In this document: positions 14,271 through 53,957 of the stretch, piece by piece
How the letters are laid out: each line of letters starts with the position of its first letter
How positions within the stretch are numbered: position 1 is the stretch's first letter
NCBI GenBank assembly: GCA_016871275.1
Contig: VFZG01000010.1
Location: 1 to 64,000, forward strand
Reading direction: 5' to 3'
Origin: Acidimicrobiia bacterium
Lineage (GTDB): Bacteria; Acidobacteriota; Vicinamibacteria; Vicinamibacterales; UBA2999
DNA: 64,000 nucleotides
The notes under the pieces: model-generated
Database searches by the model: none
Told to the model about the DNA's origin: nothing
Seen by the model: the letters and a program-made list of their open reading frames with translations, nothing else
Made by a program: the position numbers and the translations under genes

Positions 14271-15095
14271 TCAGGGAAGCGCGTCGATGGATCGCAGTAC
14301 CGCGCGGGTGATGGCCTCGCGCTTCGGCAAGTCGGCCATGCCGCCGGGCGTGTCGAGATTGAGCGCGAAGAACACCGGGCCCGCCGGCCACTCGACCCAG
14401 CCGACCCACCAGCCCATCGGCCCCTGCCAGCCGGTCTTGCCCCGCAGGATCCACTCGCGTCCAGCCTCCACGATCATGACGTCCTTGACGAGCCGTTGAT
14501 GCTCGACGCGAAACGGCAGTTCGTTGCGATAGAGGCGACGCAGAAACGCAACCTGTTCGTGCGCGGTAATCGCCAGCCGGCCGTCGACCCAGTAGTCGCC
14601 CTTCTCCACCGACGGGTCGGCGTTACCGTAGCCGATCTTCGTCAAATACCCGCGAGCCCGTTCGTGGCCGATGGCGGCGGCGAAACCCTGGAACACCCAC
14701 AACGCCGAGGTGCGCATCGCCGAGCGAAGCGTCTGGTTCTGGTTGTGACCCTCGAAGGTGTGCTTCACGCCATTCCAGGGGAACACCTGGAACTCATCGC
14801 GCACCAGGCCGGCATCGAGCGCCAACAGCGCGTGGGCAATCTTGAACGTCGAGGCCGGAGAGAACCGCCGCTCGGCACGCGGCGCGTTGTGGACCCACGC
14901 CGGCCGACCGCTGACGCGCTCGTCCAACACGACGACCGTACCCTCGGCGTCGTGGGCGTCGAAAATGCGGCCCCACTCACGACGGAGCTCAACCCGCACG
15001 TTAGGCCCCGCTGGCACCTGCTGCGCGCCGGAGGGCGCAATCTGCAGGGCGGCAGCGATGACTATGAGGCCGAGTCGAGAGGCGTGGAACCGCAT
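14271..15095 (-). CDS. Class D (OXA-type) beta-lactamase
   Basis: This 274-residue protein has a signal peptide (about 1-25) and all class D landmarks at normal spacing: STFK (82-85, nucleophile Ser82 and carbamylatable Lys85), SAL (130-132, in place of the usual SxV), YGN (156-158) and KTG (220-222). The offsets from the nucleophile (48, 74 and 138) match standard OXA enzymes. GDYWVDGRLAITAHEQ is the family segment after YGN. It should hydrolyse beta-lactams in the periplasm. It lies 7 bp after a [2Fe-2S] protein gene on the same strand. No integron or IS flanks it, so it looks like a resident gene. Confidence 0.88.
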   Translation of the reverse strand: MRFHASRLGLIVIAAALQIAPSGAQQVPAGPNVRVELRREWGRIFDAHDAEGTVVVLDERVSGRPAWVHNAPRAERRFSPASTFKIAHALLALDAGLVRDEFQVFPWNGVKHTFEGHNQNQTLRSAMRTSALWVFQGFAAAIGHERARGYLTKIGYGNADPSVEKGDYWVDGRLAITAHEQVAFLRRLYRNELPFRVEHQRLVKDVMIVEAGREWILRGKTGWQGPMGWWVGWVEWPAGPVFFALNLDTPGGMADLPKREAITRAVLRSIDALP

Positions 15096-15102
15096 GCCGT
15101 GG

Positions 15103-15450
15103 TCACTTCGCAGGGTCCAGATGGTCGTCGCCCCACTGGTAGAGCACCTGGCTGTCCACCGACACACCGTCGCGCAGGTGCTCTCTGACGATGCGGCGTC
15201 CGATGGTCGGCGTGACCTGGCGATACCACACGCCATCCGGCTGCACGATCACGACCGGGCCGTCGTCGCACCGGCCGTTGCACAAGGTCTTCGTGGTGTG
15301 GAGGCCGTCGTGCAGCCCGCACAAATGGATTTCGTCACGGATCGCCACGGTCGTTGCCGCCGCGCCACGGTCGCTGCAGCTGGAGCCATTGCAGAGGAAC
15401 AGATGGTGGCTGACCTGGGTGAGGTCCTTGATCGCCATCGCTCGAAGCAT
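15103..15450 (-). CDS. Thioredoxin-like [2Fe-2S] ferredoxin-domain protein
   Basis: A 115-residue cytoplasmic protein with cysteines in FLCNGSSC (Cx4C), LCGLHDG and LCNGRC (Cx3C), followed by PVVIVQPDGVWYRQVTP. This is the pattern of thioredoxin-fold [2Fe-2S] proteins related to the NuoE C-terminal domain and to ferredoxins found near cobalamin genes. Its partner is unknown. It is followed after 7 bp by the class D beta-lactamase, an unusual pairing that may be coincidental. A similar [2Fe-2S] protein is encoded at 20321-20716. The start may be 15450 or an ATG 12 nt later. Confidence 0.7.
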   Translation of the reverse strand: MLRAMAIKDLTQVSHHLFLCNGSSCSDRGAAATTVAIRDEIHLCGLHDGLHTTKTLCNGRCDDGPVVIVQPDGVWYRQVTPTIGRRIVREHLRDGVSVDSQVLYQWGDDHLDPAK

Positions 15451-17051: not shown

Positions 17052-18065
17052 CTACGGCCTGCTGATCACGGCCACGTCACCATTCGCACAGCCGGCCAGC
17101 AGCTCTCGATCGTCGGGCGACCACGACAACTGAGACACCGCCTGCGACAGCTGCGTGGCGCCCACCAGCACTTTCTTCGCGGACGGCTGCCAGAGAACCA
17201 CGCGACCATCAGCGCCGCCGCTGGCTAGCAGCGATCCACCGTGCTGATACGCCACCGCGGTGACCCGCTGCTCATGACCCGGCAGCAAAATGGGGGTGCG
17301 GCCCGACGGTCCCTTGCCGCCGCAATCCCAGACCACCGCCTCATTGCCACCGCCAGTGGCCAAGTAGCGGCTCGTGTGGTCCCACGACAGCTCCCTGATC
17401 TTCACGGGATAACCCGTCATCTGCAGGTCCTTGCCGGTGTCGACAATCCAGAAATGCACCGACGAATCCTGCTCGCCGGTGGCGATGTATTTGCCGCTTG
17501 GACTCCACTGCGCGACCAGCGAACTGCCCTGCCAGCTGAATTGTCGCAGCGGCTCGTCGCGTGCGGGATCGAGGAGCGTGACGCCACCGTAGCTGGTCGA
17601 GCACAGCAGGTCGCGGCCCGGCTGCCACTGCAGATCCGACACGGTGGCACGATGCTTCGGCCACTCGCGGACCAGCACGCCGTCGCGGGACCAGACTCGC
17701 ACGCCGCGGCCCGCCGCCGCGGCCAGCATGGTGCCGGCAGTGTTCCAGCGCACCGCTTCCACCCACGGCGCTCCGGCGTCGAGGTCCGCGACCACGGCGC
17801 CGTCCTCGAGATTCCACACGCGCACCCGACCATCCTGGCCGCCGGTCACCGCCTGGGTCGATGAGGGATGGCACGCGAGCGAGCTGAGGCCGAACCCGTG
17901 ACCATCTCGGCGCCAGCGCTCGTCGCCGTCACGGGACAGCATCACCAGGCCGCCGCCGACCAGGCCGGCCAGGGCCGAGCGGCCGTCGTGCGTCCAGCGC
18001 AGCGCAATCACGTGGTCACCGAAGCCACGGCGCCACCGGGCCGGTAACAGCCGTCCGGGAGTCAC
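17052..18065 (-). CDS. WD40-repeat beta-propeller protein
   Basis: This 337-residue protein has about seven WD40 repeats (for example GGQDGRVRVWNLEDG and GGADGRVVLWQPSAKK). There is no signal peptide, so it is cytoplasmic. It begins 7 bp after the CobW gene in the same direction and ends the four-gene operon from 20716 to 17052. A WD40 partner next to a COG0523 GTPase suggests a docking platform for a metal-insertion complex; this is inference from context. About 130 bp without recognised features separate it from the M28 gene. Confidence 0.78.
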   Translation of the reverse strand: MTPGRLLPARWRRGFGDHVIALRWTHDGRSALAGLVGGGLVMLSRDGDERWRRDGHGFGLSSLACHPSSTQAVTGGQDGRVRVWNLEDGAVVADLDAGAPWVEAVRWNTAGTMLAAAAGRGVRVWSRDGVLVREWPKHRATVSDLQWQPGRDLLCSTSYGGVTLLDPARDEPLRQFSWQGSSLVAQWSPSGKYIATGEQDSSVHFWIVDTGKDLQMTGYPVKIRELSWDHTSRYLATGGGNEAVVWDCGGKGPSGRTPILLPGHEQRVTAVAYQHGGSLLASGGADGRVVLWQPSAKKVLVGATQLSQAVSQLSWSPDDRELLAGCANGDVAVISRP

Positions 18066-18072
18066 CGTCGCG

Positions 18073-19422
18073 TCAGGCCAGGCAGGCGCGGAACCCGCGG
18101 TTCAACGCCTCTCGATCGAGATTGCGGCCGATGAAGATCAGCGCGTTATGGGGCGTCTCGGCGCCCCATTCGCGGTCCAGCCGCCCGTCAAACAGCATGT
18201 GCACGGCTTGGAACACGAACCGGCGATCGCGGCCCTTGATGTTCAGCACACCCTTCATCCGGAAGATGTCCTGCCCCTGGGTCTGCAGCACTTCGCTGAT
18301 CCAGGCGTTGAACTTCTTGACGTCGAGCGCGCCGGCGTCGGTAATGCCCACCGAGGTGACAGCTTCGTCATGCTCGTGGTCCGGCTTGAACACGCGCTGA
18401 TACAACGGCGTGTGCTCAGCGGCGCCGCTCAGCAGCCGCGCCCGGAACTCGTCGGGATGATGTTCGGTGAACAACGCGTAGTATCCGGCCTTGGCCACAC
18501 GAATGCGGAAGGCTGCCGGCGCATCGGCCAGCTGCAGGTCGTAGCGGGTGTCTCCGGGCACGATGATGTCGGCCTGGCTCGTTGGATGGTCGGCGCCGGA
18601 GAACGCCAGCACCGCCGGCATGATCGCCGGCTCCAGCGCGTGAGCCTCGCCGCTCTGCACCTCGAGGGCGACGAACTGCATCGACGGGTCGGGCCCGGCA
18701 TGCAGGCTCACGACATGCTCTCCTGCCGCGAGGGAATAAATCCCGGCCCACTCGAACGGAAACTCTGGCTCCAGGAACTGCGGATCCACGGCCAGCGCGC
18801 GATCGAGGTCGAAACCGCCTTGATCGAGAATGGCGTCCATGCCGACTTGCGCGTTGGCCGTGCGCAGAATCTTGGCGCCGGCGTTCATCGATCGCACGCG
18901 GACCTCGAGCTTGTCCAGTTCCCCTGGTGACACCAGGTCGGTCTTGTTCAGCAGGATCACATCCGCAAACGCGATCTGCTCCTTGACTTCGTCCTGATCG
19001 TCGATGTGCTCCCACACATGCTTGGCGTCGACCAGCGTGACGATCGCGTCGAGGGTCAGGCGCTCCTTCATCTCGTCGTCCACGAAGAACGTCTGCGCAA
19101 CCGGGCCAGGATCGGCCATGCCGGTCGTCTCGATCATGATGTGATCGAACTGATCGCGTCGCTTCATCAGGCTGCCGAGAATGCGAATCAGATCGCCGCG
19201 CACCGTGCAGCAGATGCAGCCGTTGTTCATCTCGAAGATCTCTTCCTCGGCGCCGATCACCAGCTCCTGATCGACGCCGACCTCACCGAACTCGTTCTCG
19301 ATCACGGCGATGCGCTTGCCGTGGTTCTCGGTGAGGATGCGGTTGAGCAGGGTCGTCTTGCCAGACCCGAGGAAACCCGTGAGCACGGTGACCGGCACGG
19401 GGGCGGGAGCGGGTTGTGTCAT
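18073..19422 (-). CDS. CobW/COG0523 family GTP-binding metallochaperone with an inserted domain
   Basis: This 449-residue G3E GTPase carries Walker [10 protein letters not shown] (16-24), the metal-binding CxCC motif (69-72, in GCICCTV), NKTD (159-162) and a CobW_C domain (about 354-446). COG0523 proteins use GTP to load zinc, cobalt or iron onto client proteins. Between GTPase and C-terminal domain lies an extra segment of about 110 residues (223-335) that looks like a small beta-sandwich, from [13 protein letters not shown] to [17 protein letters not shown]. It explains the length, which exceeds most members. Neighbours are a metal-type permease, a [2Fe-2S] protein and a WD40 protein. Confidence 0.85.
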
Positions 19423-19442: not shown

Positions 19443-20321
19443 CTACGTCCAGAAGGCGTTGACGAACAGGCCGAAGCCCGCGGTGTAGGTGAAGTACCAG
19501 AGTGACAGCGTCGCTAAGCCCCGCCAGCCGATCAGCGATCGGAGCACGGCCCCTTCGGGGACCGACGCCACTGCGGTCGCCATGGTGAAGCTGATCAGCG
19601 TCCCCATTGCCAGTCCGGTGCCAATGACCGGCGCCAACAACCCGGCGAGCAGACCCGGCTCGATGTGTAAGGGCAGACCGATGGCGGCGGCCGCCACTGG
19701 CGCCCAGGGCGCGGCGCCGATGGCGGCAAGCAGCGATCGGGGATCGAACTGCGCCGCTTGGAGCGCTCCGGCCAGGCCCGCGCCAATGACTACCGGCAAC
19801 GCCATCGTTCGAAGCAACCGCAATGTGTCCGCCGACGCCCGTCGCCACGCCGCCTGACGCATGGTGGGCGTGCACGCCAGCACGTGCAGATGTCGCTCAC
19901 ACGGGCGCAGCCGCAGCTGCTCAGCGAACCGGCCAGTGACGATCGCCGCCGCCAGGCCGCCGGCCAGGTACCACAGCGCGCCTTTCCAGCCGAACGCAAT
20001 CAGCACGGTGACGAGTACCACTTCGTTGACGGCGGGCGCCGCAAACAGAAACGCCGCCGCGGAACGATGCGACGCGCCGTGATGGAGCAGCGAGGCGTAA
20101 ATGGCGCCAACGCTGCACGAACAGACCGGCGTCACAGCGCCAAGCAGCGCGCCGTAGGCCAGTCCCACCGCATCCCGCCGGCCGAGAGCCAGGCGGATCC
20201 ATCCCTCGCCCAGCGCATGGCGAATCCAGCCAAGCACGAAGCTGGTTCCGGCCAGCAGCGCGCCGATTTCGACGACATGGGCCAGCCACTCCTGCGCGCC
20301 CACCGCCGTGTTCCAGCTCAT
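19443..20321 (-). CDS. Permease of the ArsP/DUF318 type (putative metal transporter)
   Basis: A 292-residue membrane protein with about eight hydrophobic segments. The motif TPVCSCSVGAIYASLL near residue 64 matches the conserved cysteine motif of the PF03773 permease family, which includes organoarsenical and SO_0444-type Cu/Zn efflux proteins; the usual PxCSCG has Ser instead of Gly. Its start overlaps the stop of the [2Fe-2S] gene (TGATG; a GTG one codon earlier is also possible). It lies 20 bp before the CobW GTPase. Transport of a metal or metalloid is inferred from family and context. Confidence 0.7.
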   Translation of the reverse strand: MSWNTAVGAQEWLAHVVEIGALLAGTSFVLGWIRHALGEGWIRLALGRRDAVGLAYGALLGAVTPVCSCSVGAIYASLLHHGASHRSAAAFLFAAPAVNEVVLVTVLIAFGWKGALWYLAGGLAAAIVTGRFAEQLRLRPCERHLHVLACTPTMRQAAWRRASADTLRLLRTMALPVVIGAGLAGALQAAQFDPRSLLAAIGAAPWAPVAAAAIGLPLHIEPGLLAGLLAPVIGTGLAMGTLISFTMATAVASVPEGAVLRSLIGWRGLATLSLWYFTYTAGFGLFVNAFWT

Positions 20322-20716
20322 CACGCCGCACTTCCTTCCTGAAGCACCGCAGCGGAGGTCGCCACGGCATACCGTTCGAAACGGTGCGGTTCGAATGATT
20401 CGGGCAGCGGCGCCAGTCGACCGGCCGCTGCTGACGCGGAAGCCCAGACGAGCAGTTCTTCAAAGAATCGCGATCCGGAAATTCCCCCGAACCAGAGGGT
20501 GCCTTCGGGTACGACGATGGTCACTACGTTGGCGATCTCACACGGCCCCAGGCAGCCGGCAATGGTCAGATGCACGTGCTTGAGCAGCCGGCGCCGCTTC
20601 CATTCGGCCTTGAGCCAGTCACTGGGGACCGCGGGTTTACCTTTGTCCACCCGGCCACAGCAGCAGCCGAGGCAGACCATGACCTGAGCCAGGGTCTGAC
20701 GCTTGGTAGTGATCAT
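20321..20716 (-). CDS. [2Fe-2S] ferredoxin-domain protein
   Basis: A 131-residue cytoplasmic protein with a cysteine-rich N-terminus (MVCLGCCCGRVDKG) and a second pair in GCLGPCE, the thioredoxin-like [2Fe-2S] pattern. The remaining 60 residues form a simple helical tail. It is the first gene of the operon that continues with permease, CobW GTPase and WD40 protein, so its redox or cluster function probably serves the same metal pathway. Its promoter must lie in the 140 bp shared with the divergent gene at 20857, in which I see no clear operator. Confidence 0.68.
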   Translation of the reverse strand: MITTKRQTLAQVMVCLGCCCGRVDKGKPAVPSDWLKAEWKRRRLLKHVHLTIAGCLGPCEIANVVTIVVPEGTLWFGGISGSRFFEELLVWASASAAAGRLAPLPESFEPHRFERYAVATSAAVLQEGSAA

Positions 20717-20856
20717 CGGGCTGCACTCAACAGCCCATCGTACGCGGCTGGCGCGCCACTCCCGGTGCGCGAAACACCACGTTCAGGTGTCGGATCGCAC
20801 CAGCCAACAGCGTGTCGTCGTACCGACGCGCCCGGCGGCGCGCGCTACAACAAGGG

Positions 20857-21171
20857 ATGCTCGATCTCGACGATCTTCCTAAGCCCGATCCCGCTGCCCT
20901 CGCCCGCGTCAAGCAGTGGGTGCGGTCTTCGTGCCGGCTGCCGGAGGACGTGCCCGTGCTGGTCACCGAGCTGCGATGCCGCGAGGAGGGCTGCCCGCCT
21001 GTGGAAACCGTGATCGCGGTGATGTTTGCGCCCGGACTGCGATGGCAACACAAGCTGCACAAGCCGGCGGCGGCCATCGCCTGGCATGAAGTGATTCATT
21101 GCGGCCGCAAGTGGGATGAGTGGGCCGTCAATGCCGGGGTGCGTCCGCACGACAAAGCGGAACGTGAGTGA
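20857..21171 (+). CDS. Small conserved protein divergent from the CobW operon
   Basis: A 104-residue cytoplasmic protein with no motif I can assign to a named family. It begins MLDLDDLPKPDPAALARVKQW and contains ELRCREEGCPPVETVIAVMF, a CxxxxC pair that could bind metal, followed by LHKPAAAIAWHEVI. It is transcribed away from the metal operon that starts at 20716, suggesting a linked role. ATG 20857 is used because sequence upstream is compositionally random. About 100 bp without recognised features lie between it and the regulator gene end. Confidence 0.5.
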   Translation: MLDLDDLPKPDPAALARVKQWVRSSCRLPEDVPVLVTELRCREEGCPPVETVIAVMFAPGLRWQHKLHKPAAAIAWHEVIHCGRKWDEWAVNAGVRPHDKAERE

Positions 21172-21271: not shown

Positions 21272-22222
21272 CTAGCGGTGGGAGTGCGGCTCGATCACCC
21301 TGAGCACGAAGCGTTCATCGTGACCCTCGCCGATACGATCGAGCGTCTGCTGTCGCCGCAGCCGGCCGATCACTCGCGTCACCGTCGCCCGGGTCGCGCC
21401 GATCGCCGATGCCAGTTGGCCGTGGGTCAGACGCAGGTTGAGCCGGACCCCGGTTGCAACGGGACTACCGAACGCCTCGGCCAGCAGCGACAGCAGGCCG
21501 ATAACACGATCCTCCAGGTGCGGCCGCGCAACGACCGCCGCCCAGGCATCCGTGCGGCGGATACGCTCGCGCAGCCGGGACGCGAAGGCCGGCGTGGCCG
21601 CGGCGTGCTGCCACGACTGCACCGTGCCGCGCGTCTCGGTATGCGCGCGCCACAGCAGGCAGCAGGAATCATGCGGGTGGCCCACCAGGACCTCGCCTCC
21701 ACCTGCCATGCCAATCAGGACTTCCGACCCGTCGTCGTGAAGCACGCTGGTGGAGACAATGCCGGACTCGAGAATCAGCACATCGTGCTCATCGATGAGG
21801 ATCTCGGAGTTGGCGGGGTAGCGATTGGGACCGTGCCTCGCCGGACGGCCTGAGTGCGCGGTGCCTTGGACACGCGCAAACGCCGTGCGCAGCGCGGAGT
21901 CGACGGCCTCCCGCGTGACGCCGCCGGGGAGCACGGCCAGCGCACCGAGTTCATAGGCCCGCACCGCAGCGGCCGACCGATCGAGGCGGTTCCAGGCGAT
22001 CCACATCACGCGTCGCGATTCCAATAGTGGGATCGCCCAGGGCTCATCGCCCGATGTGGTCTCGAGCGCGGCCAGAACGAGAGGGGCGGGTTCACCGAGA
22101 TTGACGGCCGCGCTCAGCGCCGCGGCGTCGTGAACCAGCGTCACTGAGAAATCGCCGACTGGCAGCAGATCGACGAGCTGTCGCGTCGCGTCGAGCGGAC
22201 CGGCGAGGAGCAGGCGTGGCAC
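21272..22222 (-). CDS. Crp/Fnr-family regulator with an N-terminal pseudo-receiver domain
   Basis: This 316-residue protein combines three parts. Residues 1-119 look like a CheY-type fold (LLLAGPL...ALAVLPGGVTREAVDSAL) but lack the acidic pocket and phospho-Asp. Residues about 125-210 are a cyclic-nucleotide-binding-like barrel. Residues about 225-305 are a Crp-type winged helix with recognition segment LTHGQLASAIGATRATVTRV. Phosphorylation is therefore unlikely; protein contact or a ligand in the barrel may control it. Translation starts at GTG 22222. A candidate LytTR site lies 47 bp upstream, placing it in the regulon of the neighbouring two-component system. Confidence 0.7.
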   Translation of the reverse strand: MPRLLLAGPLDATRQLVDLLPVGDFSVTLVHDAAALSAAVNLGEPAPLVLAALETTSGDEPWAIPLLESRRVMWIAWNRLDRSAAAVRAYELGALAVLPGGVTREAVDSALRTAFARVQGTAHSGRPARHGPNRYPANSEILIDEHDVLILESGIVSTSVLHDDGSEVLIGMAGGGEVLVGHPHDSCCLLWRAHTETRGTVQSWQHAAATPAFASRLRERIRRTDAWAAVVARPHLEDRVIGLLSLLAEAFGSPVATGVRLNLRLTHGQLASAIGATRATVTRVIGRLRRQQTLDRIGEGHDERFVLRVIEPHSHR

Positions 22223-22389: not shown

Positions 22390-23166
22390 CTACAGCCGCA
22401 GCAGCGTATCGCGCAGCACGCGCGACTGAATGCGGCTGGCCACCAGGCTTTGACCGTTGCTCAGCAGCACCTGATACGTGCCGCCGGGCATGGGGCTGAA
22501 CTTCTGAATCGCATCGACGGCGACCAGCGTGCCCCGGCTCAAACGGACGAACCGGCGGCGATCGAGCCGCCCTTCGAGCGCGTGCAGCCGGTGGGAAATC
22601 GTGAAACGCTCGCCGGTCAGCGTGGTCAAGTGCAACAGTTCGCCCTCGGCCACAATCGACGCGATCTGCCGCACCGCCAGGATGACGGTTTCATCCCGGC
22701 GCCGCACGGGAATGCGCTCGAGGTACTGGCGCTTGGCGGCCGCCTCGAGCGCGGACGACGCGGCGGTCAGGGCGCTGACCCGATCTGCCGCCGGCCCCTG
22801 CGCTCGCGCCGCAGCGCGATCGATGGTGGCGCGCAGGCGGCCGCTCTCGACCGGCTTCAGCAGATAGTCGATGACGTTCAACTCGAACGCTTCGAGCGCG
22901 AACTCGTCGTGCGCGGTCACGAAGGCGATCGACGGCGTCGTGCCGGCTCTGACCAGCCGCGCGATGTCGAGCCCGCCGACGTCCGGCATGTTCAAGTCGA
23001 GCAGCGCCAGATCGGGTTGTTGCTGCTCGATCAAGACAATCGCGTCGCGCCCATTGTCCGCTTCGCCGATGACCAGCACGTCGGGAAACGCGCGCAACAG
23101 GTTGATCAAGAACCGGCGGGCCGGCCGTTCATCATCTGCGACGACGACTTTCAACTGCTTTGACAT
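22390..23166 (-). CDS. LytTR-family response regulator
   Basis: This 258-residue regulator has a complete receiver domain (1-120: acidic Asp11-Asp12, phospho-acceptor Asp57 in LLDLNMPD, conserved Lys in LLKPVE) and a C-terminal LytTR DNA-binding domain (about 150-257). LytTR domains bind pairs of direct repeats about two helical turns apart, which agrees with the six 21-bp-spaced sites found nearby. The start (ATG 23166; another ATG 6 nt earlier) overlaps the kinase gene by 35 bp, so the pair is co-translated. A second, broken copy exists at 55801. Confidence 0.88.
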   Translation of the reverse strand: MSKQLKVVVADDERPARRFLINLLRAFPDVLVIGEADNGRDAIVLIEQQQPDLALLDLNMPDVGGLDIARLVRAGTTPSIAFVTAHDEFALEAFELNVIDYLLKPVESGRLRATIDRAAARAQGPAADRVSALTAASSALEAAAKRQYLERIPVRRRDETVILAVRQIASIVAEGELLHLTTLTGERFTISHRLHALEGRLDRRRFVRLSRGTLVAVDAIQKFSPMPGGTYQVLLSNGQSLVASRIQSRVLRDTLLRL

Positions 23167-24997
23167 CGGCAAGTTTCTCTTCCTCGTTCACGCTCGCGGG
23201 AAGCGTCAGTATGGCGAGCGTATCGCCGTCGGATGCCGTAGCCAACTCCAGTGAGGCGTTCGGCCCGTAGAGCGCCATCAGGCGACGGCGCACGTTGTCG
23301 AGACCGACCCGATCGCCGGTGTCGACGGCACGGCTCAACGGTGCGCCGCTGTTGCGGACCTCGATCTTCAACCGCGATTCGCCAGAGTGACACTCGCAGT
23401 CGGCGCGAATCGCCACCCGGCCGCCCGCGGTGCTCTTCGCAATGCCGTGCTTGATGGCATTGTCGACCAGCGGCTGCAACGTCAGCGCCGGTACGTGATT
23501 CTGCCGTAATGCGTCAGGCACATCAACCGTCACCGTCAACCGCTCTTGGAAGCGTTCGGCCTCAATCCTCAAGTAATGTTCAACGAGTTCAGTTTCGCGG
23601 CCAAGCGTGGTCATTTCGCCGTCAGACCGCAGCACGCCCCGCAGCAACCCGGTGAGCTGCATCAAGGTCGACAACGCCCGCGGCGGCGCGGCCTCAATCA
23701 GGTAGCCAATCGTCGTCAACGCGTTGAAGAGAAAATGCGGGTTGATCTGCGCGCGAAGCGCTTTCAGTTCGGCCTCGGCGGTGAGTTTCTGCATGCGTTG
23801 AGCGCGCAGCTCCACTTCGTAGCGCTCGTGCGTCAGGCGCAACTGGTCGATCCTTCGGGCGGCGATGTTAACCGCCGCATCGATCAGCGCGAGGTCGTCG
23901 GAGAGTAGCCGGCGCCCGTCCATCAGCTCGCCAACCTTCACCAGGTACGGCGGATGTTCGGTGGTGTCGACCGACGCCCGCGCGGTGACTCCGGCGTCGG
24001 CGGTCTCCGGGCTGTCACCCTCCATCCACCAGACTCGGCTGGCGTTGAGCGCCGTCCGCAGCTGTTCGCACAGGGTGTCGAGCACCTGCTCGATCGACGC
24101 GCCGTTTTGCAAGGCCCCAGCCATTCGTGCGTTCAGATCGCGGTAATCGACGCGCCGCAACAGCAGCACGTCCACCAGCGCCGTTACGCCGCGGTGCAAC
24201 GACGGCATGACCAGGGCGGTGCCGACCCACAAAATAAGACCGAGGCCGGTTGTGATCGGCCCCGGCGTCAGCGCCGCTGTCAGTGAGTAGCCTGTGAATG
24301 CGAAAGCCACCAGGGCCAAAAGGGTCAGCGCGCGCTTGAGGAACAGGTCGGCCAGGGCGAATCGGTAGTCCTGGTAGAGGATGGCGAACGCCAGCGGAAT
24401 CGCGGCATGATGACCGACCAGTTCAATCGCCCAACTTTCGTCGCCTCCATGTTCGCGCCCCAGATGTGACGCCGATACCGCGAACATGGCGAGGGCGACG
24501 ATCCAAAGAATCCGTGAGCCATTCGGCTGCCCGCGCGTCAGCGCGGCCAGGGCGACGATAATGCCGGTATAGCAGATTGTCAGCACCACAAATGCCAGTG
24601 ACGAAGCATTGGGGTCGCCCGTCAACACGGTCTGGATGTGCAGCACCGACGCCGCCGTGCTGCAGGCGTACGCAACGCTCGTGACGAGGCCGCCGTTCGG
24701 CAGGTCGCGGGCGACCGAGTGCACTACGACCGCCGCCAGCAGTCCGAGCGCAGGGAAGGCCGTGGCCCATAAACCGACCGAGTATTCGAGATAGCCGAGC
24801 TTCGGGAGAGCGAAGGCCGTTAACTCTCCCAGATTCCACACCAATCCCAGCAGCGCCGTGGCCAGCGGCAATGCCGAGGTCGACGGATTCCGGGCGCCCG
24901 AATCGCGCAAGACGAGCGCCAGCAGCATGGCGTACAACACCGTGCCGGTGATGAAGCCGACAAGGTTGAGCACTTCCGCCGCATTGGTTGACACCAC
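23132..24997 (-). CDS. LytS/YehU-like sensor histidine kinase
   Basis: This 621-residue kinase has an N-terminal membrane region (about eight hydrophobic segments to residue 270, including DYRFALADLFLKRAL), a GAF-like linker and a His_kinase/HATPase pair. The phospho-acceptor is His421 in QINPHFLFNALT; the ATP pocket includes PLVDNAIKHGI and DRVGLDNVRRRL. GTG 24997 is chosen by comparison with the paralogue at 53958, whose N-terminus aligns from NAAEVLNLVGF; the frame is open further upstream but crosses the promoter. It phosphorylates the overlapping LytTR regulator. A candidate LytTR site 46 bp upstream suggests autoregulation. Confidence 0.87.
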   Translation of the reverse strand: MVSTNAAEVLNLVGFITGTVLYAMLLALVLRDSGARNPSTSALPLATALLGLVWNLGELTAFALPKLGYLEYSVGLWATAFPALGLLAAVVVHSVARDLPNGGLVTSVAYACSTAASVLHIQTVLTGDPNASSLAFVVLTICYTGIIVALAALTRGQPNGSRILWIVALAMFAVSASHLGREHGGDESWAIELVGHHAAIPLAFAILYQDYRFALADLFLKRALTLLALVAFAFTGYSLTAALTPGPITTGLGLILWVGTALVMPSLHRGVTALVDVLLLRRVDYRDLNARMAGALQNGASIEQVLDTLCEQLRTALNASRVWWMEGDSPETADAGVTARASVDTTEHPPYLVKVGELMDGRRLLSDDLALIDAAVNIAARRIDQLRLTHERYEVELRAQRMQKLTAEAELKALRAQINPHFLFNALTTIGYLIEAAPPRALSTLMQLTGLLRGVLRSDGEMTTLGRETELVEHYLRIEAERFQERLTVTVDVPDALRQNHVPALTLQPLVDNAIKHGIAKSTAGGRVAIRADCECHSGESRLKIEVRNSGAPLSRAVDTGDRVGLDNVRRRLMALYGPNASLELATASDGDTLAILTLPASVNEEEKLADVKAVESRRRR

Positions 24998-25043
24998 GGT
25001 TCGCCCAGTCTGCGGGTGAAACCGGCGCCTCGGTAGCACGTCC

Positions 25044-25076
25044 GAACGAATGGGCGAAATGAACCGTTGAGCGGTC
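25044..25076 (-). promoter_or_regulatory. Candidate LytTR operator D (kinase-regulator genes)
   Basis: GAACGAATGGGC (25044-25055) and CGTTGAGCGGTC (25065-25076) on the plus strand are 21 bp apart and lie 46 bp upstream of the kinase start, between it and the DUF3299 gene. Confidence 0.55.
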
Positions 25077-25098
25077 GTTCCGACAGGTTCGCGCCGCG

Positions 25099-25623
25099 TT
25101 ACAGCCCGTCGGCCGACAGAAACTCGCCGCGCATCTGGTAAAGGCCCGACAGACGGCCGGCGCGGTAGGACGGTTCGACACTCAGACGCCCGAAGATTGT
25201 CACCGGTTGAAACTGCAGAAACGGCACGCGCGCGTTCATCTCCACCAGCACCCATTCGTTGGGCAGGCCGGTCAGACCCCAGTGGCATGAATCGATCGAC
25301 GAGGTCAGGATGAACGTCTTGACGCCAGCGGAGGTCACGTCTATGGGCAGCATGAAACCACGGATCGAAGAGGCCTTGCCATGCAGCGCCAGCACCTCAG
25401 CGGGAATGACCAGCGGCTCCGTCGGTCTCGACGCGGGCTGGCTGTGCACGAATCCGTCAGCGAGCGGCAGGTCGAACGAGGCGAGCGACAGGAAGCGCAC
25501 GAACGGATAGCTCCGCTTCAATTCGGCGGCACGCTCGAGCGGGACCACGAGGCCTTGCGCAGCCAGGTGCGCGCTCATCAGCCACAGCACCGCGACGATG
25601 CCCGGTAGACGGCTCAGACTCAC
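25099..25623 (-). CDS. DUF3299 protein, third copy
   Basis: This 174-residue exported protein starts at GTG 25623, which overlaps the TGA of the preceding DUF3299 gene by 4 bp. A signal peptide spans about 1-23. DUF3299 hallmarks are IPAEVLALHGKASSIRGFML, a central DSCHWG in place of the CYFG seen in the other copies, and a C-terminal RAGRLSGLYQM. Known DUF3299 genes in proteobacteria accompany a MacB-like ABC pair linked to zinc uptake; the molecular role is undefined. It is last in the lipoprotein-DUF3299-DUF3299 unit. Confidence 0.68.
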   Translation of the reverse strand: MSLSRLPGIVAVLWLMSAHLAAQGLVVPLERAAELKRSYPFVRFLSLASFDLPLADGFVHSQPASRPTEPLVIPAEVLALHGKASSIRGFMLPIDVTSAGVKTFILTSSIDSCHWGLTGLPNEWVLVEMNARVPFLQFQPVTIFGRLSVEPSYRAGRLSGLYQMRGEFLSADGL

Positions 25624-26210
25624 GAGGCCGCGCCTGTGCCGATACCGTCGGCATCGACCCGGTACAGGCCGACGACGCGTCCGTTGCGACGCTGTGGCGT
25701 GATGTGCAGCGTCCCGAACACCACCACTGGTGTATGCACCAAGGGCCCCCGGCGACCCCCGGTGATCGTGACCGTGATGAATTGGTTCGGCAGCGTCGGC
25801 GCGCCGAAGTAACACATGTCCATGTTAGCGTTCAGAATGAACTGGTTGACGCCCTGCCCGTTGAAGTCCACCGGCAGCATGAAGCCCACGATACCCACGC
25901 GTTGACCGTCGAGCGCCAGCACTTCCTCTGGAATGACTTCGTTGCCGGCGGCGCCCGAATCGTCGTCCGGGCGGACACCGTAATCGAACGAGGCCAGCAG
26001 ACTGAACGACACCTGCTTGTAGCGTCGCCCCATTGCTTCGAACTGTTCGACCGGGACGATGGCGGACGTGTCGAGCGGTTCTCGGTTCTCGGCCGCGCGC
26101 ATCGCGAACAGGATCACGAATCCGATACCTGCACCCGCCACGATCGCCCATCGGACGGGCATCGGCTTCGCGGCGTTGTCGACAGGTGACGGCATCGCGT
26201 GGGTCGACAT
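25620..26210 (-). CDS. DUF3299 protein, second copy (membrane-anchored)
   Basis: This 196-residue protein has an uncleaved-looking N-terminal membrane segment (WAIVAGAGIGFVILFAM, about 21-40) and a periplasmic DUF3299 domain: VIPEEVLALDGQRVGIVGFM, NMDMCYFGAP and NGRVVGLYRVDAD. The start is ATG 26210, 2 bp after the lipoprotein stop; a TTG two codons earlier is less likely. The conserved Cys in CYFG, shared with the copy at 28804, may be a ligand or thiol site. It is translationally coupled to the third copy downstream (GTGA overlap). Confidence 0.72.
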   Translation of the reverse strand: MSTHAMPSPVDNAAKPMPVRWAIVAGAGIGFVILFAMRAAENREPLDTSAIVPVEQFEAMGRRYKQVSFSLLASFDYGVRPDDDSGAAGNEVIPEEVLALDGQRVGIVGFMLPVDFNGQGVNQFILNANMDMCYFGAPTLPNQFITVTITGGRRGPLVHTPVVVFGTLHITPQRRNGRVVGLYRVDADGIGTGAAS

Positions 26211-26212
26211 GA

Positions 26213-26785
26213 TCAATGGCCGGCCGACGGGTGGCGGAATGCGACACGCGCGAATGACCGCCCGCGAATGCCAATCGACGTGATCGTGCCGCGGAATTCG
26301 TCGCGGCCTTTCAGTGGAGGCACGGTGGCACTGAACTGCGACGTGTCACCGGCCTTCTCCCCTGTCAGGGCGTTCTCGACCGCCGTCAGCTCGACATCCA
26401 ATGGCTCCAACACGTCGGGCACGGTGATGCGCAGCGTCACGGTTGGTTGCGACAGGCGAACGGGTTTCTCCGCTTCGCCGTCGAGGGCGAAGGCCGTGAC
26501 CCGTCCGGTTTCCTTGTCGAGGAGCAACTCGAGATGCGCAAACTCATCCCCGAGCTCGACGAGCGTACCGCCGTGAGGCGCGGCGTGCGCGTGTGTCTTG
26601 GCGGCGGGTCTGTCCGTGGATTTCGGCTCCGTGGCTGGTTCGGGAGCATTCGTTGGAGGTGCTGGCGCCGGCGCTGGCGCCGACGCCACCGGTGCCGCGG
26701 CCGGAGGAGGTGCTTCTGTTGGAGCGGCCGCGCAAGAGGCCGCAAATACCGACCAAGCCGCAAAGCCGATTCTCAAAGCCATCAT
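26213..26785 (-). CDS. Lipoprotein with a His-rich segment, putative metal-binding
   Basis: A 190-residue protein with a lipobox-like AASC near residue 18, then about 45 residues of Ala/Pro linker and a short histidine cluster (KTHAHAAPHGG). The remainder is beta-rich (VELGDEFAHLELLLDKETG), similar in style to periplasmic adaptor or substrate-capture domains. I cannot name a family with certainty. Its place beside a MacB-like ABC pair and DUF3299 proteins is like that of the His-rich ZrgA protein in the Vibrio Zrg zinc system; this parallel is contextual. A candidate LytTR site lies 43 bp upstream. Confidence 0.6.
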   Translation of the reverse strand: MMALRIGFAAWSVFAASCAAAPTEAPPPAAAPVASAPAPAPAPPTNAPEPATEPKSTDRPAAKTHAHAAPHGGTLVELGDEFAHLELLLDKETGRVTAFALDGEAEKPVRLSQPTVTLRITVPDVLEPLDVELTAVENALTGEKAGDTSQFSATVPPLKGRDEFRGTITSIGIRGRSFARVAFRHPSAGH

Positions 26786-26828
26786 GCCTCAAGCGTGGGG
26801 GCAGACGACTGCAGTGGCGACCCAAAGA

Positions 26829-26861
26829 TGATGAATGGTCGCTACGGGGTGATGACCGGCT
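26829..26861 (-). promoter_or_regulatory. Candidate LytTR operator E (lipoprotein-DUF3299 unit)
   Basis: TGATGAATGGTC (26829-26840) and TGATGACCGGCT (26850-26861) are 21 bp apart in the gap between the ABC permease stop (26868) and the lipoprotein start (26785), ending 43 bp before that start. Confidence 0.55.
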
Positions 26862-26867
26862 TCCGAA

Positions 26868-28127
26868 TCAGGAACTGGGCACCAGATTGGAAGCCACATC
26901 CGTGCGATACGCCTTGAATGCGGGCACCAGGCCGGCGAGCGCGCCCACGACCAACATACCGGCCGGCGTCATCCACAACACCGGATCGAGCCGGAACGGG
27001 TCGAGTACCACGCCGGTCTGAGCGCGGACAACCACGTAGGCGGCGCCCAGGATCGCCGAATACACCAGGAAACCGAGCCCCGTACCAATGGCGGTAATCG
27101 CCGTCGCTTCCAGGACGATCGCCGAAAACACCGTGCCCTTGCGGGCGCCCAGCGAACGAAGAATGGCGAACTCGCGTCGCCGCTCGTTCATCGTGTTGTA
27201 GAGGCTCGCCAGAATCGACCCGGCCGCGACCACCACTACCAAGTAGGCCACCATCTCGAGAATGCGGTTGACCCACCCGATCTTGTCGAAGAGGTCGGCC
27301 ATGACCCGGCCGATCGGCCACGCCAGCGTGGCCTGATTGCCCTGCCGGTTGATGAGTTGATCGAGGTAAATCCCCGCCTGCGGATCGGTCAGCTTCAACA
27401 TCACCGCGCTGACCTCGCGATGTTCGTCGGGAATTGCCTCGCCCTCGACGGGTTTGAAGCTTCGGCCCGAGCCGCGCAGCACATGTCCCGACATCCGGTA
27501 CAGCCCTTCAATCGGAATCCACACCACCCGATCCGACGGGCTGTTGGTCGGCTCGAGGATGCCGACGACGCGATACTCGTCCTGATGTTTGCGGTCTTCG
27601 TCGAAGATCAAACCGTGATAGGGGTTGATGATATCGCCGACGCTGACATCGAGCCGCTCGGCGACGACACTGCCGATTACCGCCTCTTGCGCGGTTTCTT
27701 CGAAGAAGCGGCCGCCCGCCTGCGCAACGAACTGGCGACCTTCGCGGTACTGAAAGCGCGTGAACATCTCTGCCGTGGTGCCGACGATCCGGTAGCCATG
27801 GAAGTTGTCTCCCACCGCGTAAGGGATCGCCAGTTCGACGCCTGGGTCCTGCTTGATGGTCTGGTACAGGCGCCACGGAATATTGCCCGGAGACGTTTCG
27901 AGGTGGAAAACGGTGTTCAGCACCAGTTGCAGCTGACTGCCACGCGCGCCCAGCGCCGCGTCGAAGCCGGCGTTGCCGCCCGTAAACGCGTCGTAGGTCT
28001 GGCGGTTGATGCTGAACACGCTCATCACCAGCCCGCTGGCCAACGCCACTGCCGCCGCGGTCACCGCGGTCGACAATCCATGCTGCCGCAAACTGCGCCG
28101 AACGATCAGAAACAAACCCGGGGTCAT
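26868..28127 (-). CDS. MacB/LolC-like ABC transporter permease
   Basis: This 419-residue protein has one N-terminal membrane segment, a periplasmic MacB_PCD-type domain (about 45-270) and three C-terminal membrane segments of the FtsX fold (MVAYLVVVVAAGSILASLYN onward), with the conserved ERRREFAILRSLGAR loop that contacts the ATPase. Such permeases work by mechanotransmission rather than classical transport and act on envelope substrates or lipoproteins. It overlaps the ATPase gene by 4 bp (ATGA). The neighbourhood favours a Zrg-like metal-uptake role. Confidence 0.85.
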   Translation of the reverse strand: MTPGLFLIVRRSLRQHGLSTAVTAAAVALASGLVMSVFSINRQTYDAFTGGNAGFDAALGARGSQLQLVLNTVFHLETSPGNIPWRLYQTIKQDPGVELAIPYAVGDNFHGYRIVGTTAEMFTRFQYREGRQFVAQAGGRFFEETAQEAVIGSVVAERLDVSVGDIINPYHGLIFDEDRKHQDEYRVVGILEPTNSPSDRVVWIPIEGLYRMSGHVLRGSGRSFKPVEGEAIPDEHREVSAVMLKLTDPQAGIYLDQLINRQGNQATLAWPIGRVMADLFDKIGWVNRILEMVAYLVVVVAAGSILASLYNTMNERRREFAILRSLGARKGTVFSAIVLEATAITAIGTGLGFLVYSAILGAAYVVVRAQTGVVLDPFRLDPVLWMTPAGMLVVGALAGLVPAFKAYRTDVASNLVPSS

Positions 28128-28807
28128 GCTGCCGCCCGATTGATGTGGGCGAGCTCGTCGACGCGCTCGAATTGCGCCAGCGCCTCGGAGTCATGGGTCA
28201 CCAGCAACAGCGCGGCGCCATTCTCACGGCAGACGTCGCGGATCAGCGCCAGCGCTTCACGGGCATGCCGCGGGTCGAGATTGCCGGTCGGTTCGTCGGC
28301 CAGCACGAGTTGCGGACGATTGGCCAGCGCCCGCGCCACCGCCACGCGTTGCTGCTGGCCGACGGACAGTTGCCGCGGCTTGTGATGCAACCGCGCGCCC
28401 AGGCCGACCCGCTCCAGCAGCTGGGTGGCGGCAGGTCGATCCGCACCCTTGCCGAAGGTCATACCGAGCAGCACGTTCTCGAGCGCGCTGAATCCCTGCA
28501 GCAGATTGAACGTCTGGAACACGTAGCCGATGGTCTCGGCGCGCATGCGGTCGCGGCCGGATTCGGTCAGCGCGGTGATCTCGCGCCCGGCCACGACCAC
28601 GCGGCCGGCGTCGGGAGCGAGAATCCCCGCCACCATATTCAGCAGCGTCGTCTTGCCGGAACCGCTCATGCCGCGCAGGGCAATCTGCTCGCCGTGTGCG
28701 AGGGCGAACTCCGGCACATCGACGATTGGCGTCATCTCTCCGTCCGGAGAACGAAAGCTCTTGCGCAGGTCCTGGATCAACAGCGCCGGTCCACGCGTGT
28801 CGGTCAT
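28124..28807 (-). CDS. MacB/LolD-like ABC transporter ATPase
   Basis: This 227-residue ATPase has Walker A GMSGSGKTT, Q-loop YVFQTFNLLQGF, signature LSVGQQQRVAVARAL, Walker B LVLADEPTGNLD and switch His in VTHDSEA, all typical of the MacB/LolD branch. It partners with the permease downstream (ATGA overlap) and starts within the stop of the DUF3299 gene upstream (ATGA overlap), so the three products are made together. Confidence 0.9.
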   Translation of the reverse strand: MTDTRGPALLIQDLRKSFRSPDGEMTPIVDVPEFALAHGEQIALRGMSGSGKTTLLNMVAGILAPDAGRVVVAGREITALTESGRDRMRAETIGYVFQTFNLLQGFSALENVLLGMTFGKGADRPAATQLLERVGLGARLHHKPRQLSVGQQQRVAVARALANRPQLVLADEPTGNLDPRHAREALALIRDVCRENGAALLLVTHDSEALAQFERVDELAHINRAAA

Positions 28808-29274
28808 CTGCGGCCTTCAGTTTCGGCGCTGTCTGCCTCGAGACGGTACACGCTGGCCACGCGGCCGTTGCGTATTTCCTCGCCGACCGAGAGACGGCCC
28901 TTGACGGTGGTCGCCAAGTGCGTGAACGCGGCGCGCTTGCCGCCTTTCATGGTGACCAGAATCCACTCGTTCATGCGGACCGGCGCGCCGAAATAGCACA
29001 TGTCGAGGTTCGCGTTCAGCATGAACACCGATACGCCCTGCGGCGTCAGATCGAGCGGCAGCATGAAACCCTCGATCGCCACCATCTTGCCGTTGAGCGA
29101 CTTGATCGCCACCGGAATCTGGTTGGGCACGAGCTTGGCCGTCGGATCGAGCGGGTCGGGCAGCTCGTAGTCGTAGTTGCTGAGCTTGTTGAAGTCGACC
29201 TGGGAGTAGGCCTGGCCCAGACCCGTCGTGCCCATCAACACGCACCCGATCGCGACCGTCGCAAACCACCGCAT
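28804..29274 (-). CDS. DUF3299 protein, first copy
   Basis: This 156-residue exported protein has a signal peptide (about 1-23) followed by a compact DUF3299 domain: IPVAIKSLNGKMVAIEGFM, NLDMCYFGAP and NGRVASVYRLEAD. ATG 29274 follows a strong AGGAGG. Three paralogues in one locus probably form a multi-part periplasmic assembly working with the ABC pair. Its stop overlaps the ATPase start. It lies 14 bp after the CehA-type gene, so it probably belongs to that transcript. Confidence 0.75.
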   Translation of the reverse strand: MRWFATVAIGCVLMGTTGLGQAYSQVDFNKLSNYDYELPDPLDPTAKLVPNQIPVAIKSLNGKMVAIEGFMLPLDLTPQGVSVFMLNANLDMCYFGAPVRMNEWILVTMKGGKRAAFTHLATTVKGRLSVGEEIRNGRVASVYRLEADSAETEGRR

Positions 29275-29288
29275 GCTCAACCTCCTAC

Positions 29289-31865
29289 CTACCACCCACG
29301 CGCCACGGCGTCTGCGCGGCGCCGGCGGTACTCGTCCCGCGCGCGCTCGAAATCGCCGAACACGGATTGTTTCTCGGCAGCGTTGGTCCAGCCCGGCCAC
29401 GCGTCCGCCATCAATTGCAGCATATCAATCCACTTGAGCGCGTAGTCCGCTGCCGCGCTGTTCCGAACCGGCTGACCGCCGACTGCGATCCACACCGGGT
29501 TGGTGAACGCCTGCGCGTAGATGGTGTCGAGCGGAAACCGTTCGTTCGGTGTTCCCTCCGCCCGCACATGAATCCATCCGCTCCGGCTGACCGGCACCAC
29601 ACGGGAGAACGTCGCGGAGCGGCGGCCGGCATCTAGCGGAAGTTCGGCGACTTCCTGGCCGTCCTGCACGATGATCAGCCGCTGCAACGGCGTCGCCGAG
29701 CGCAACGTGCCCCGGACTTCCACTTGCCCAGGCGCACTCAACGACACATCGCCACCGGGAAGCTGATCGCCAATCCGTACGTCCAGCAGCGGCCCGGTGC
29801 TGACGAACGTGCGGCCGCGGCGCACACCCTGCCACCACGCATCCGCCGTCAGTTCGCCGTTCGTGTGCACGTAGGTCCGCACACAGCCGAGCAGCCGCAT
29901 GATGTGGAGATTGCTGATGGTGTCTTCTCCGCCAATGGCCGTCACGCGCAGGCCGTTGTTGAGGGCCGCGTACCACGGGACGAATGCGCCGCGGCTCGCG
30001 GCTGCCCACTCGATGGTGTCGGCCAGCCCCAGCGCCGCATCGACCATGAACGCCTTGCCGAGGCCCAGGCCCGCGCTCATCGGGTCGGTCTCGCCTGAAA
30101 ACGCGTGGACGTAGCTGGTGATGGCGCCCCCGCTCTTGGCCGCTGCAAGAAACGCGGTGTTCGACGGCGCGAGGGTGGGCGGTGGCGGCGCCTCATAGCC
30201 GATGGTGACGGGAAACAACTCGGTCAACCGTCGCCGGTCGCCGAACACCGCGACGTGTCCATGAAACGGTGGCCGATATTCCTGTCCCAGCATCAACAGC
30301 CGGTCGGGCGTCGACAACGGGTGAGCCGCGGATCCCCAGGCGAACAGCTCGTCATCCGCGATGCGGCGCTCCTGATGCGCCAGCGCGTTGTTGACGACCG
30401 CGACGTCCTCGGCCGCAGCCTGAAACAACAAGTCCTTCATGTCGTAACGCAGCAAGCCGCCGCCGTGCATATGGGCGCCTGTGGAGCCGCTCAGCCATTG
30501 CGCGGCGCGCAGGTCGGCAATGCGCCGCAGCCGCACGGTGAGATCGCGCTGCTGTCCCGGCTCGATGGTCGTCTCGACCCTCGCCGGCTCGTACTCGAAT
30601 CCCTTGACGACATCGAGCGTGAGCGGTCCCGCGGGCAGCTCGAATACCTCGCCGCCATCCGAGTGAAACACTCGATCGCCGGCCCAGTTCACGCGGGCCA
30701 GCCGGGACGGCGGCGCATACGCGCGGCCATCGGAGGCGGTCAGATGCACCCGTGCAGCGGTGGGTTTCCCGGTTGTGTCATCGATGATGTGGAGGGCAAC
30801 CGAGCCGGCCGGCCGCTTCCAGTTGCGTGACGTGACGGGGACGTTCCGAACGCGTTGCGTCTCCAGATCGTAGATGGCCACTTGAGGCAGTCCGGACGCG
30901 TTGGTCAGATACGCGATGCGTCTCCCGTCCGCAGACCAGCGCGGCATGAAGACGTCGAAGTCGCCGGCCACCAGGTCGACTGGGGCGGTTCCGTCTATGC
31001 CAGTCAGAGTCAGCGCGCTCCACGAACGCGTGCCGCCGCGTGACGACGAACGGGCAATGTGGTGGCCATCGGGCGACACTCGAGGCGCGGCCTGATACAG
31101 CGTCTGTTCATCGATCACCACGGTCGATCGATCGATGCCGGCCGCCACCGCCGGCACCCGGCGCACGCGTCCAGACCCACGATCCACTCCGTGGTTCGAG
31201 ACCAGCAGCAACTCCCGGCCGTTGGGCAGCCAGGCCGGCGAAATGTGCATGTCCTGGGCAGTGAAGTACGGGCGCTCCCGGCCGCTGTTGGTGGTGCTAT
31301 CGGAGGTGACGGCAACCGGTTCGCCACTCCACGAGCCGTTGGCGAAACCGCGCACGAACACGTTGAAATACCCGTTCGGCAGCGACGCCGTGTAGGCGAG
31401 GCGCGTGCCATCCGGAGAAAACTCGGGGTCGGCGTAGTTGGCGGCGTCACTGTCGAGCACGCGGCTTTGGTTGGTCAGCAGGTCGAGCACCTCGAGACCA
31501 ATCGCCTTCCCGCCGGCGTCGACGGTGTAGACGATCCAGCGCCCGTCGGCGGACCATGTCGGCGATGAGTGATACCCGGCACCCGCGGTGAGCTCCACCG
31601 CCGCCCCGGTGTCAATATCGAGACGCCAGATGGAGCCGGACATCGCGACGGCCAGCGAACGGTCGTCAGGACTCCAGGACGGCGCCCATGGCGTCGAGCT
31701 CGGGGCAGGCGGGAAGTGATACGAGTGCATGTAGTTGCCGCCATACCGAGAGTGCTGGTACGGGCGACGCGTCCACTGGGCGCCGGCGTCTGCGCTGAGT
31801 GCGACGACGGCGATAGCCAGTGTGACGAGGGGGATCACGCGCGGGCGCATCGGAGTGCGCGGCAT
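29289..31865 (-). CDS. CehA/McbA-type metallohydrolase fused to a TolB-like propeller
   Basis: This 858-residue exported protein has a signal peptide, an N-terminal PD40/TolB-type propeller (about 50-380, repeats such as WSPDDRSLAV and WSADGRRIAYLT) and a C-terminal PHP-type metal-dependent hydrolase of the CehA/McbA family (about 470-750) with a metal-binding GAHMHGGG. Family members cleave esters or other bonds, but the substrate here is unknown. The first gene of its transcript, it is followed by DUF3299 and the ABC pair. A candidate LytTR site lies 57 bp upstream with a TAGGAT box (31899-31904) between. Confidence 0.78.
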   Translation of the reverse strand: MPRTPMRPRVIPLVTLAIAVVALSADAGAQWTRRPYQHSRYGGNYMHSYHFPPAPSSTPWAPSWSPDDRSLAVAMSGSIWRLDIDTGAAVELTAGAGYHSSPTWSADGRWIVYTVDAGGKAIGLEVLDLLTNQSRVLDSDAANYADPEFSPDGTRLAYTASLPNGYFNVFVRGFANGSWSGEPVAVTSDSTTNSGRERPYFTAQDMHISPAWLPNGRELLLVSNHGVDRGSGRVRRVPAVAAGIDRSTVVIDEQTLYQAAPRVSPDGHHIARSSSRGGTRSWSALTLTGIDGTAPVDLVAGDFDVFMPRWSADGRRIAYLTNASGLPQVAIYDLETQRVRNVPVTSRNWKRPAGSVALHIIDDTTGKPTAARVHLTASDGRAYAPPSRLARVNWAGDRVFHSDGGEVFELPAGPLTLDVVKGFEYEPARVETTIEPGQQRDLTVRLRRIADLRAAQWLSGSTGAHMHGGGLLRYDMKDLLFQAAAEDVAVVNNALAHQERRIADDELFAWGSAAHPLSTPDRLLMLGQEYRPPFHGHVAVFGDRRRLTELFPVTIGYEAPPPPTLAPSNTAFLAAAKSGGAITSYVHAFSGETDPMSAGLGLGKAFMVDAALGLADTIEWAAASRGAFVPWYAALNNGLRVTAIGGEDTISNLHIMRLLGCVRTYVHTNGELTADAWWQGVRRGRTFVSTGPLLDVRIGDQLPGGDVSLSAPGQVEVRGTLRSATPLQRLIIVQDGQEVAELPLDAGRRSATFSRVVPVSRSGWIHVRAEGTPNERFPLDTIYAQAFTNPVWIAVGGQPVRNSAAADYALKWIDMLQLMADAWPGWTNAAEKQSVFGDFERARDEYRRRRADAVARGW

Positions 31866-53951: not shown

Positions 53952-53957
53952 CATTCC

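Follow-up and report, generated by a model that had tools for sequence, protein, structure and literature searches.

Very probable control of an adjacent zinc- or cobalt-handling operon by a Crp/Fnr-type regulator with a predicted pseudo-receiver domain

Which genes are served by a regulator that carries a receiver-like domain in front of a Crp/Fnr-type DNA-binding part, and that lies between a two-component system and a metal operon? The gene (21272..22222, minus strand) encodes 316 amino acids in an open frame from a GTG start. It is located in the window, the stretch of 64,000 nucleotides that was analysed; the source genome comprises 3.96 Mb and 124 contigs, of which C10 carries the window. 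A LytTR response regulator and a LytS-like kinase (22390..25288, minus strand) are encoded next to it on the same strand, across a gap of 167 nt. The sequence-only reading of this DNA had proposed a cascade from the kinase to the pseudo-receiver protein. The anatomy which that reading described, a pseudo-receiver-Crp fusion, is retained here, but its circuit is not. It is very probable that the regulator governs the zinc- or cobalt-handling operon beside it, and it does not seem to act as a further stage of the adjacent two-component system.

For the N-terminal 119 residues (21866..22222), structure prediction gives a (beta-alpha)5 receiver fold that lacks the residues of phosphorylation. The best of five AlphaFold2 models of residues 1-125, calculated from four input sequences, has a pLDDT of 82.9 and a pTM of 0.79, and its elements follow each other in receiver order (strands 3-7, 26-30, 48-53, 73-78 and 96-99; helices 10-19, 33-40, 64-68, 83-91 and 104-123). 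The receiver fold is that of the best two models (pLDDT 82.9 and 81.8; the others reach 60.6, 58.7 and 54.5), and the full-length model (pLDDT 79, pTM 0.57) has the same order of strands and helices. Structure matches of the whole protein were filled by the Crp part and barely tested the N-terminus, and the N-terminal model was therefore searched separately against the PDB with Foldseek. Nearly all of the best 50 matches listed were receiver domains or response regulators; the best one listed was CpxR (E 9e-5, TM 0.72, rmsd about 3), and PhoB, FixJ and DesR were also among them. Pfam gave no match of Response_reg (PF00072) to the regulator at E<=10. As judged by eye from the model and the alignment, G8/P9, A52, W77 or N78, and G100 stand where a receiver has DD, D, T and K. 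The motif W-[IL]-[AG]-W-N-R stands at the end of strand 4, the receiver Thr/Ser place, in all four full-length orthologues. By the definition of a 2025 review (PMC12632262), a pseudo-receiver is a computationally identified receiver in which any of five residues is missing, and the domain conforms to this, the receiver being identified by predicted fold and not by Pfam. Atypical response regulators such as RitR (PMC12632262, PMC5965902) likewise have a receiver fold without catalytic residues, fused to a DNA-binding output and without a dedicated kinase. The regulator differs from them in its Crp/Fnr output, in a receiver that Pfam misses and in the absence of Asp at the phosphorylation place.

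The remainder of the protein belongs to the Crp/Fnr family, with a Crp-type helix-turn-helix recognised by Pfam and a cNMP-binding-like beta barrel recognised by fold. The helix-turn-helix (residues 239-296; 21335..21508) matches HTH_Crp_2 at 3.2e-10 with 40.3 bits against a cut-off of 27, and the Crp model of Pfam matches with 31.8 bits against 21; the cNMP_binding model gave no match at E<=10. In a structure comparison the barrel and helix-turn-helix resemble NtcA (Z 21.4, rmsd 2.1 over 177 residues). With this part in place behind the predicted receiver fold, the anatomy given in the sequence-only reading, a receiver without acidic pocket or phospho-Asp followed by a barrel and a Crp helix-turn-helix, holds. 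The best NCBIfam model is that of cyanobacterial PtrA (E 3.4e-26), which scores 91.8 bits where 300 are required, and the NtcA model reaches 48.6 bits against 244.95, so that the protein is not an equivalog of either. It shares with both the succession of barrel, long helix and helix-turn-helix, and its TRATVTR resembles TRVTVTR of NtcA, but it lies far below both curated cut-offs, carries a pseudo-receiver in front, has the motifs GHPxDxC and HxH, and is linked to a metal operon. The phosphate cassette of cAMP-binding CRP has the form GE...R. At this place the regulator has G181-H182-P183 and, by eye, lacks the Arg-Ser pair, which sets it apart from cAMP-binding CRP. Its helix-turn-helix retains both of the arginines with which Crp recognises GTG.

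The distribution of the regulator is patchy: the five genomes that encode it span three families, while eight congeners of its own genome lack the gene. At E<=0.001 it has matches in 13 of 99 genomes, the own genome counted; those below 1e-50 are confined to the own genome (G000), G042, G017, G086 and G061, and the other eight lie between 5.4e-5 and 8.5e-4. A profile of the five regulators found the same five among the 162 genomes of the order, and a search at class level (5 of 193 genomes) added none to them. A genome-contig search with the single protein gave no match, and one with the alignment gave four loci. The four orthologues are 40-54% identical to the window protein. All the regulator genomes are draft assemblies, and the four relatives are MAGs, of which two carry the label Acidobacteria and the other two Acidimicrobiia. 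At phylum level, 396 sampled genomes yielded 13 matches at E<=1e-12, comprising four of the known five (without G042), eight matches to the Crp part (2e-15 to 8e-13), which were left out of the regulator count, and one further full-length, distant pseudo-receiver-Crp fusion in G462 (E 1.5e-62; L035 8479-9477, minus strand), with a TonB receptor/MacB-type permease on one side and a pair of ABC exporter genes on the other, as annotated by eye. The plasmid search returned two cyanobacterial Crp proteins only, at 31% identity. A Kovacikia minuta plasmid (L054 5263-6513, plus strand) encodes a PAS-Crp fusion, its PAS domain assigned by eye, that is related to the regulator core, and a CobW-like gene lies about 3 kb away from it.

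The fusion of pseudo-receiver and Crp/Fnr parts thus recurs in four other genomes of the order, with the qualification that G061 has lost most of the pseudo-receiver (52 codons before the barrel match versus 136 in the window) while keeping the operon and the operator. The pseudo-receiver can therefore be lost, and is best read as an accessory or decaying domain.

The regulator precedes a metal module on the same strand in all five loci. In the window, the first gene of the operon encodes a CCCG ferredoxin-like protein (20321..20716; 2Fe-2S ferredoxin matches in NCBIfam are weak and below cut-off), followed on the minus strand by an ArsP_1 family permease (19443..20324; Pfam 8.8e-28), a CobW/COG0523 metallochaperone-type GTPase (18073..19422; Pfam 1.6e-62) and a WD40 protein (17052..18065; Pfam). 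The CCCG protein, CobW and the WD40 protein are present in 5/5 loci, with identities of 55-63%, 67-72% and 50-60%, respectively, in the four relatives; in G086 the CCCG gene stands directly before CobW. The transport slot is filled by two non-homologous sets: in G042, G017 and G086 it holds CbiM and CbiQ together with an ABC ATPase in the position of CbiO, and in the window and G061 the ArsP_1 permease (59% identity). Pfam confirms CbiM in G042 and G017, and CbiN and CbiQ in G017. That the ArsP_1 permease and CbiMNQO replace each other in the same regulated position suggests that the permease, too, has to do with metal; import by it is uncertain, since its best NCBIfam matches, below cut-off, are efflux families. 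A CobW orthologue at E<=1e-60 occurs in exactly the five regulator genomes of the 162 in the order (p 7e-9, without phylogenetic correction), and one further genome, G157, has a partial match of 52%.

Several other genes accompany the module. A small divergent gene (20857..21171, plus strand) with the motif VTEL.C..GCPP.ET has homologues at the same place in G086 and G061; no family was found for it in Pfam at a meaningful E-value, and none in NCBIfam. The G061 module adjoins a P-ATPase that scores above the cut-off of the TIGR01512 cadmium family and below those of the ZntA models, together with a histidine-rich 'HGG' protein and a DUF3299-like protein. In the window, three DUF3299-like genes (one below cut-off) surround an ABC/FtsX pair and an HGG gene (25099-29400, minus strand), and homologues lie beside metal genes in G061 (L017, L097). 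Elsewhere in the window, a class D beta-lactamase-like protein with STFK and KTG motifs, recognised by eye only, is encoded at 14271-15236 on the minus strand.

A conserved palindrome, which we propose as the operator, occupies the same place in all five operons. In the window it reads GGTGTCGGATCGCACC (20786..20801, unstranded). Its pattern, GGTG-N8-CACC, stands before the first transport gene, as GGTGCGATCCGACACC in the window and G017, GGTGCGAATCGACACC in G042, GGTGTCGCCTGACACC in G061 and TGTGCGATCCGACACC in G086, where one end base differs and the site, directly before CbiM, is the best in 15 kb. The matrix was built from the window, G042, G017 and G061, with G086 held out. In leave-one-out scoring the sites rank 1 of 63985 (window), 1 of 11985 (G042), 1 of 8113 (G017), 2 of 11985 (G061) and 1 of 14986 (G086); the site that scores higher in G061 faces the HGG gene, some 50 nt ahead of where the P-ATPase gene probably starts. 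The distance to the transport start is 69, 62, 56, 66 and 71 nt in the window, G042, G017, G086 and G061, respectively, and the ATG of the small divergent gene follows at 55 nt in the window, 57 in G086 and 58 in G061. Mean identity over the five operons is 0.68 in the site versus 0.29 in the flanks. Shuffling of the 120-nt upstream segments produced the pattern, which was drawn up after the sites had been seen, in 13 (window), 5 (G042), 2 (G017), 12 (G086) and 14 (G061) of 2000 shuffles. The palindrome differs from the site bound by NtcA.

A TAnnnT hexamer follows the site at 43 nt in the window, 45 nt in G042 and G061, and 46 nt in G086; G017 has CAAGAT at 44 nt instead. If these hexamers are taken as -10 boxes, the palindrome is centred near -64 to -67, roughly the class I position of Crp, and activation is preferred on this ground. 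No such palindrome was found upstream of the regulator gene itself. The exact pattern occurs at 31 sites in the own genome versus 7 for the reversed control pattern. Ten sites besides that of the window were inspected, and all fall within called frames; these figures tell against a clean regulon. To judge by eye, however, two of the ten perhaps precede the true gene starts: C30:8205, ahead of an alkaline phosphatase gene, and C30:9940, ahead of a PepSY_TM gene (L084). Both are near a heavy-metal P-type ATPase, and the second scores low (8.7). They are weak candidates for a second regulon locus and are kept only as such, because a few out of 31 sites should fall close to gene starts anyway.

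Control of the operon by the regulator is well supported, and it is probable that the protein is a Crp/Fnr regulator dedicated to the downstream metal operon, which it binds at the operator and activates, with metal as the signal and the pseudo-receiver as an accessory. It would bind GGTG-N8-CACC, that is GTG-N10-CAC with the half-site spacing of Crp, and from this class I-like position, with the small divergent gene on one side and the transport operon on the other, it would most likely activate rather than repress. The metal is probably sensed directly. The barrel contains an invariant G-H-P-x-D-x-C (residues 181-187; 21662..21682) about at the place of the Crp phosphate cassette, and the C-terminus ends in H-x-H (residues 313-315; 21278..21286). 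G181, H182, P183, D185 and C187 as well as H313 and H315 are invariant in 5/5 aligned regulators, and the GHPxD and the HxH tail are absent from four other Crp proteins examined (four frames from 20 loci). Both motifs are thereby candidate ligand sets for Zn or Co; model confidence is low in the tail (pLDDT <50). The distant fusion of G462 has GHPED without the Cys and lacks the HxH tail. The pseudo-receiver, devoid of a phospho-acceptor, might serve as a dimer interface or in the binding of a partner or ligand, and would be dispensable in at least one relative.

As to the metal, we infer zinc rather than cobalt. As described in PMC2770081, COG0523 subfamily 5 clusters with WD40 and znuABC genes and is linked to zinc limitation, and several of its members have Zur sites in front; the pairing of CobW with WD40 in the five loci fits this subfamily, as far as gene pairing goes. 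The regulator would take the place of Zur. It would work much as Zur does, beside a COG0523/WD40 metal operon, although its fold is unrelated and, with a Crp helix-turn-helix instead of the Fur domain PF01475, it is not a member of the Fur family. Fur family members number one each in the own genome, G042, G017 and G086 and two in G061. All five genomes have the same Fur-rubrerythrin fusion, which in the own genome is the sole PF01475 match (L085 916-2079, contig C3, minus strand), and the second member of G061 lies by katG. Zur was not recognised among the Fur family members of these five genomes; the assemblies are drafts, and a missing Zur may be an assembly gap. A study of delta-proteobacteria (PMC545781) describes znuABC with no visible Zur and considers, as one possibility, that another mechanism regulates it.

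A regulator of cobalt, or nickel, rather than zinc is a possible but rather doubtful alternative. CbiM and CbiQ of G017 exceed the NCBIfam cobalt cut-offs (215.9 bits versus 184.15, and 127.8 versus 111.8), so that the metal may be cobalt or nickel. Against this stand not only the CobW-WD40 pairing and the cadmium-family P-ATPase beside the G061 module but also two results that speak against cobalt for corrin synthesis: CbiC of B12 synthesis had no match in 6/6 genomes (the positive control was found in 7/14), and Rfam at gathering threshold gave nothing in the window and L014-L017, the cobalamin riboswitch included.

It is rather unlikely that the regulator controls the operon in response to a different signal, metal being the output only. 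Such a signal might be 2-oxoglutarate, redox sensed via the Cys pair, or something that the pseudo-receiver binds, be it a ligand or a partner. This would suit a C-terminal core closest to NtcA and the PtrA model, and a cyanobacterial relative of the core in which a PAS domain appears to stand in front, so that N-terminal domains can be swapped. Known pseudo-receivers, too, sense redox or ligands, according to the review (PMC12632262). The GHPxDxC and HxH residues, however, are invariant even though G061 has mostly lost its pseudo-receiver, and CobW and CbiM/CbiN/CbiQ point to metal handling.

An extension of the preferred, metal-sensing reading is speculative. In it a Crp/Fnr protein has replaced Zur and founds a new class of metalloregulators, with metal in the cAMP pocket and a dead receiver as modulator, and in bacteria without B12 synthesis this protein would drive the CbiMNQO-CobW module under zinc starvation, as a programme of cobalt-for-zinc cofactor substitution. 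The alkaline phosphatase gene at C30:8205 is a weak candidate target of such a programme. Related precedents include the FNR-like FlpA and FlpB of Lactococcus lactis, which are Crp/Fnr-type regulators near zinc uptake. They are not known to have a pseudo-receiver, and they belong to another phylum. Among the open-literature matches listed, no paper dealt with a pseudo-receiver-Crp metal-operon system, and the main text of the pseudo-receiver review contains none of the terms cNMP, cyclic nucleotide, HTH or Acidobacteri (PMC12632262). For the metal supply of Acidobacteria without a recognised Zur, a testable set of regulator, operator and operon can now be named. It includes a pseudo-receiver for which both a candidate promoter and a relative with a natural deletion of the domain are at hand, so that its function can be tested directly.

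The two-component system is a neighbour outside the module. A candidate LytTR site had been noted upstream of the regulator, but the best half-site pair in the 250 nt upstream scores 13 of 16 against the LytTR consensus, which 129 of 500 dinucleotide shuffles also reach, so that the site is at chance level; by this consensus no direct-repeat site places the regulator in a LytTR regulon. Every one of the five genomes with the regulator also encodes the kinase (p 0.0012, without phylogenetic correction), and matches at E<=1e-40 occur in 44/162 genomes of the order, 39 of them without the regulator. In the other four genomes regulator and kinase lie on different contigs (C2 and C36 in G017, C71 and C121 in G042, C36 and C4 in G086, C13 and C1 in G061). 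No homologue of the kinase or response regulator was found in the fetched flanks of these four regulator loci; the upstream flank is short in three of them (G042, G017 and G061), with only 0.8-1.3 kb between the regulator and the contig end. The association of the fusion with LytTR loci, whose absence the sequence-only reading had itself named as refuting, was accordingly not seen in the four other genomes, and no conserved link was seen in the five. That the two-component system transcribes or signals to the regulator, which would relay the signal, is thus very unlikely despite the adjacency on one strand and the constant presence of the kinase: the kinase lies on another contig in the relatives, the LytTR site is at chance level, and the regulator has no phospho-acceptor, its receiver being mostly lost in G061.

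The surroundings of the system itself are of two kinds. It adjoins the DUF3299-FtsX-ABC cluster in G061 and in the first copy of the window, which would favour a connection with the regulator. The second copy of the window and the systems of G017 and G042 instead have a neighbour that looks, by eye, like a dipeptidase gene, which would not favour it. The presence of the kinase in all five genomes and the DUF3299 neighbourhood of G061 suggest that system and regulator may share a metal theme, serving one metal in parallel. The second kinase copy of the window (53955-56441, in the plus-strand region 53955-56684) is about 60% identical to the first. The match of its response regulator begins only at residue 45 and is split in two, so that this protein looks truncated or frameshifted.
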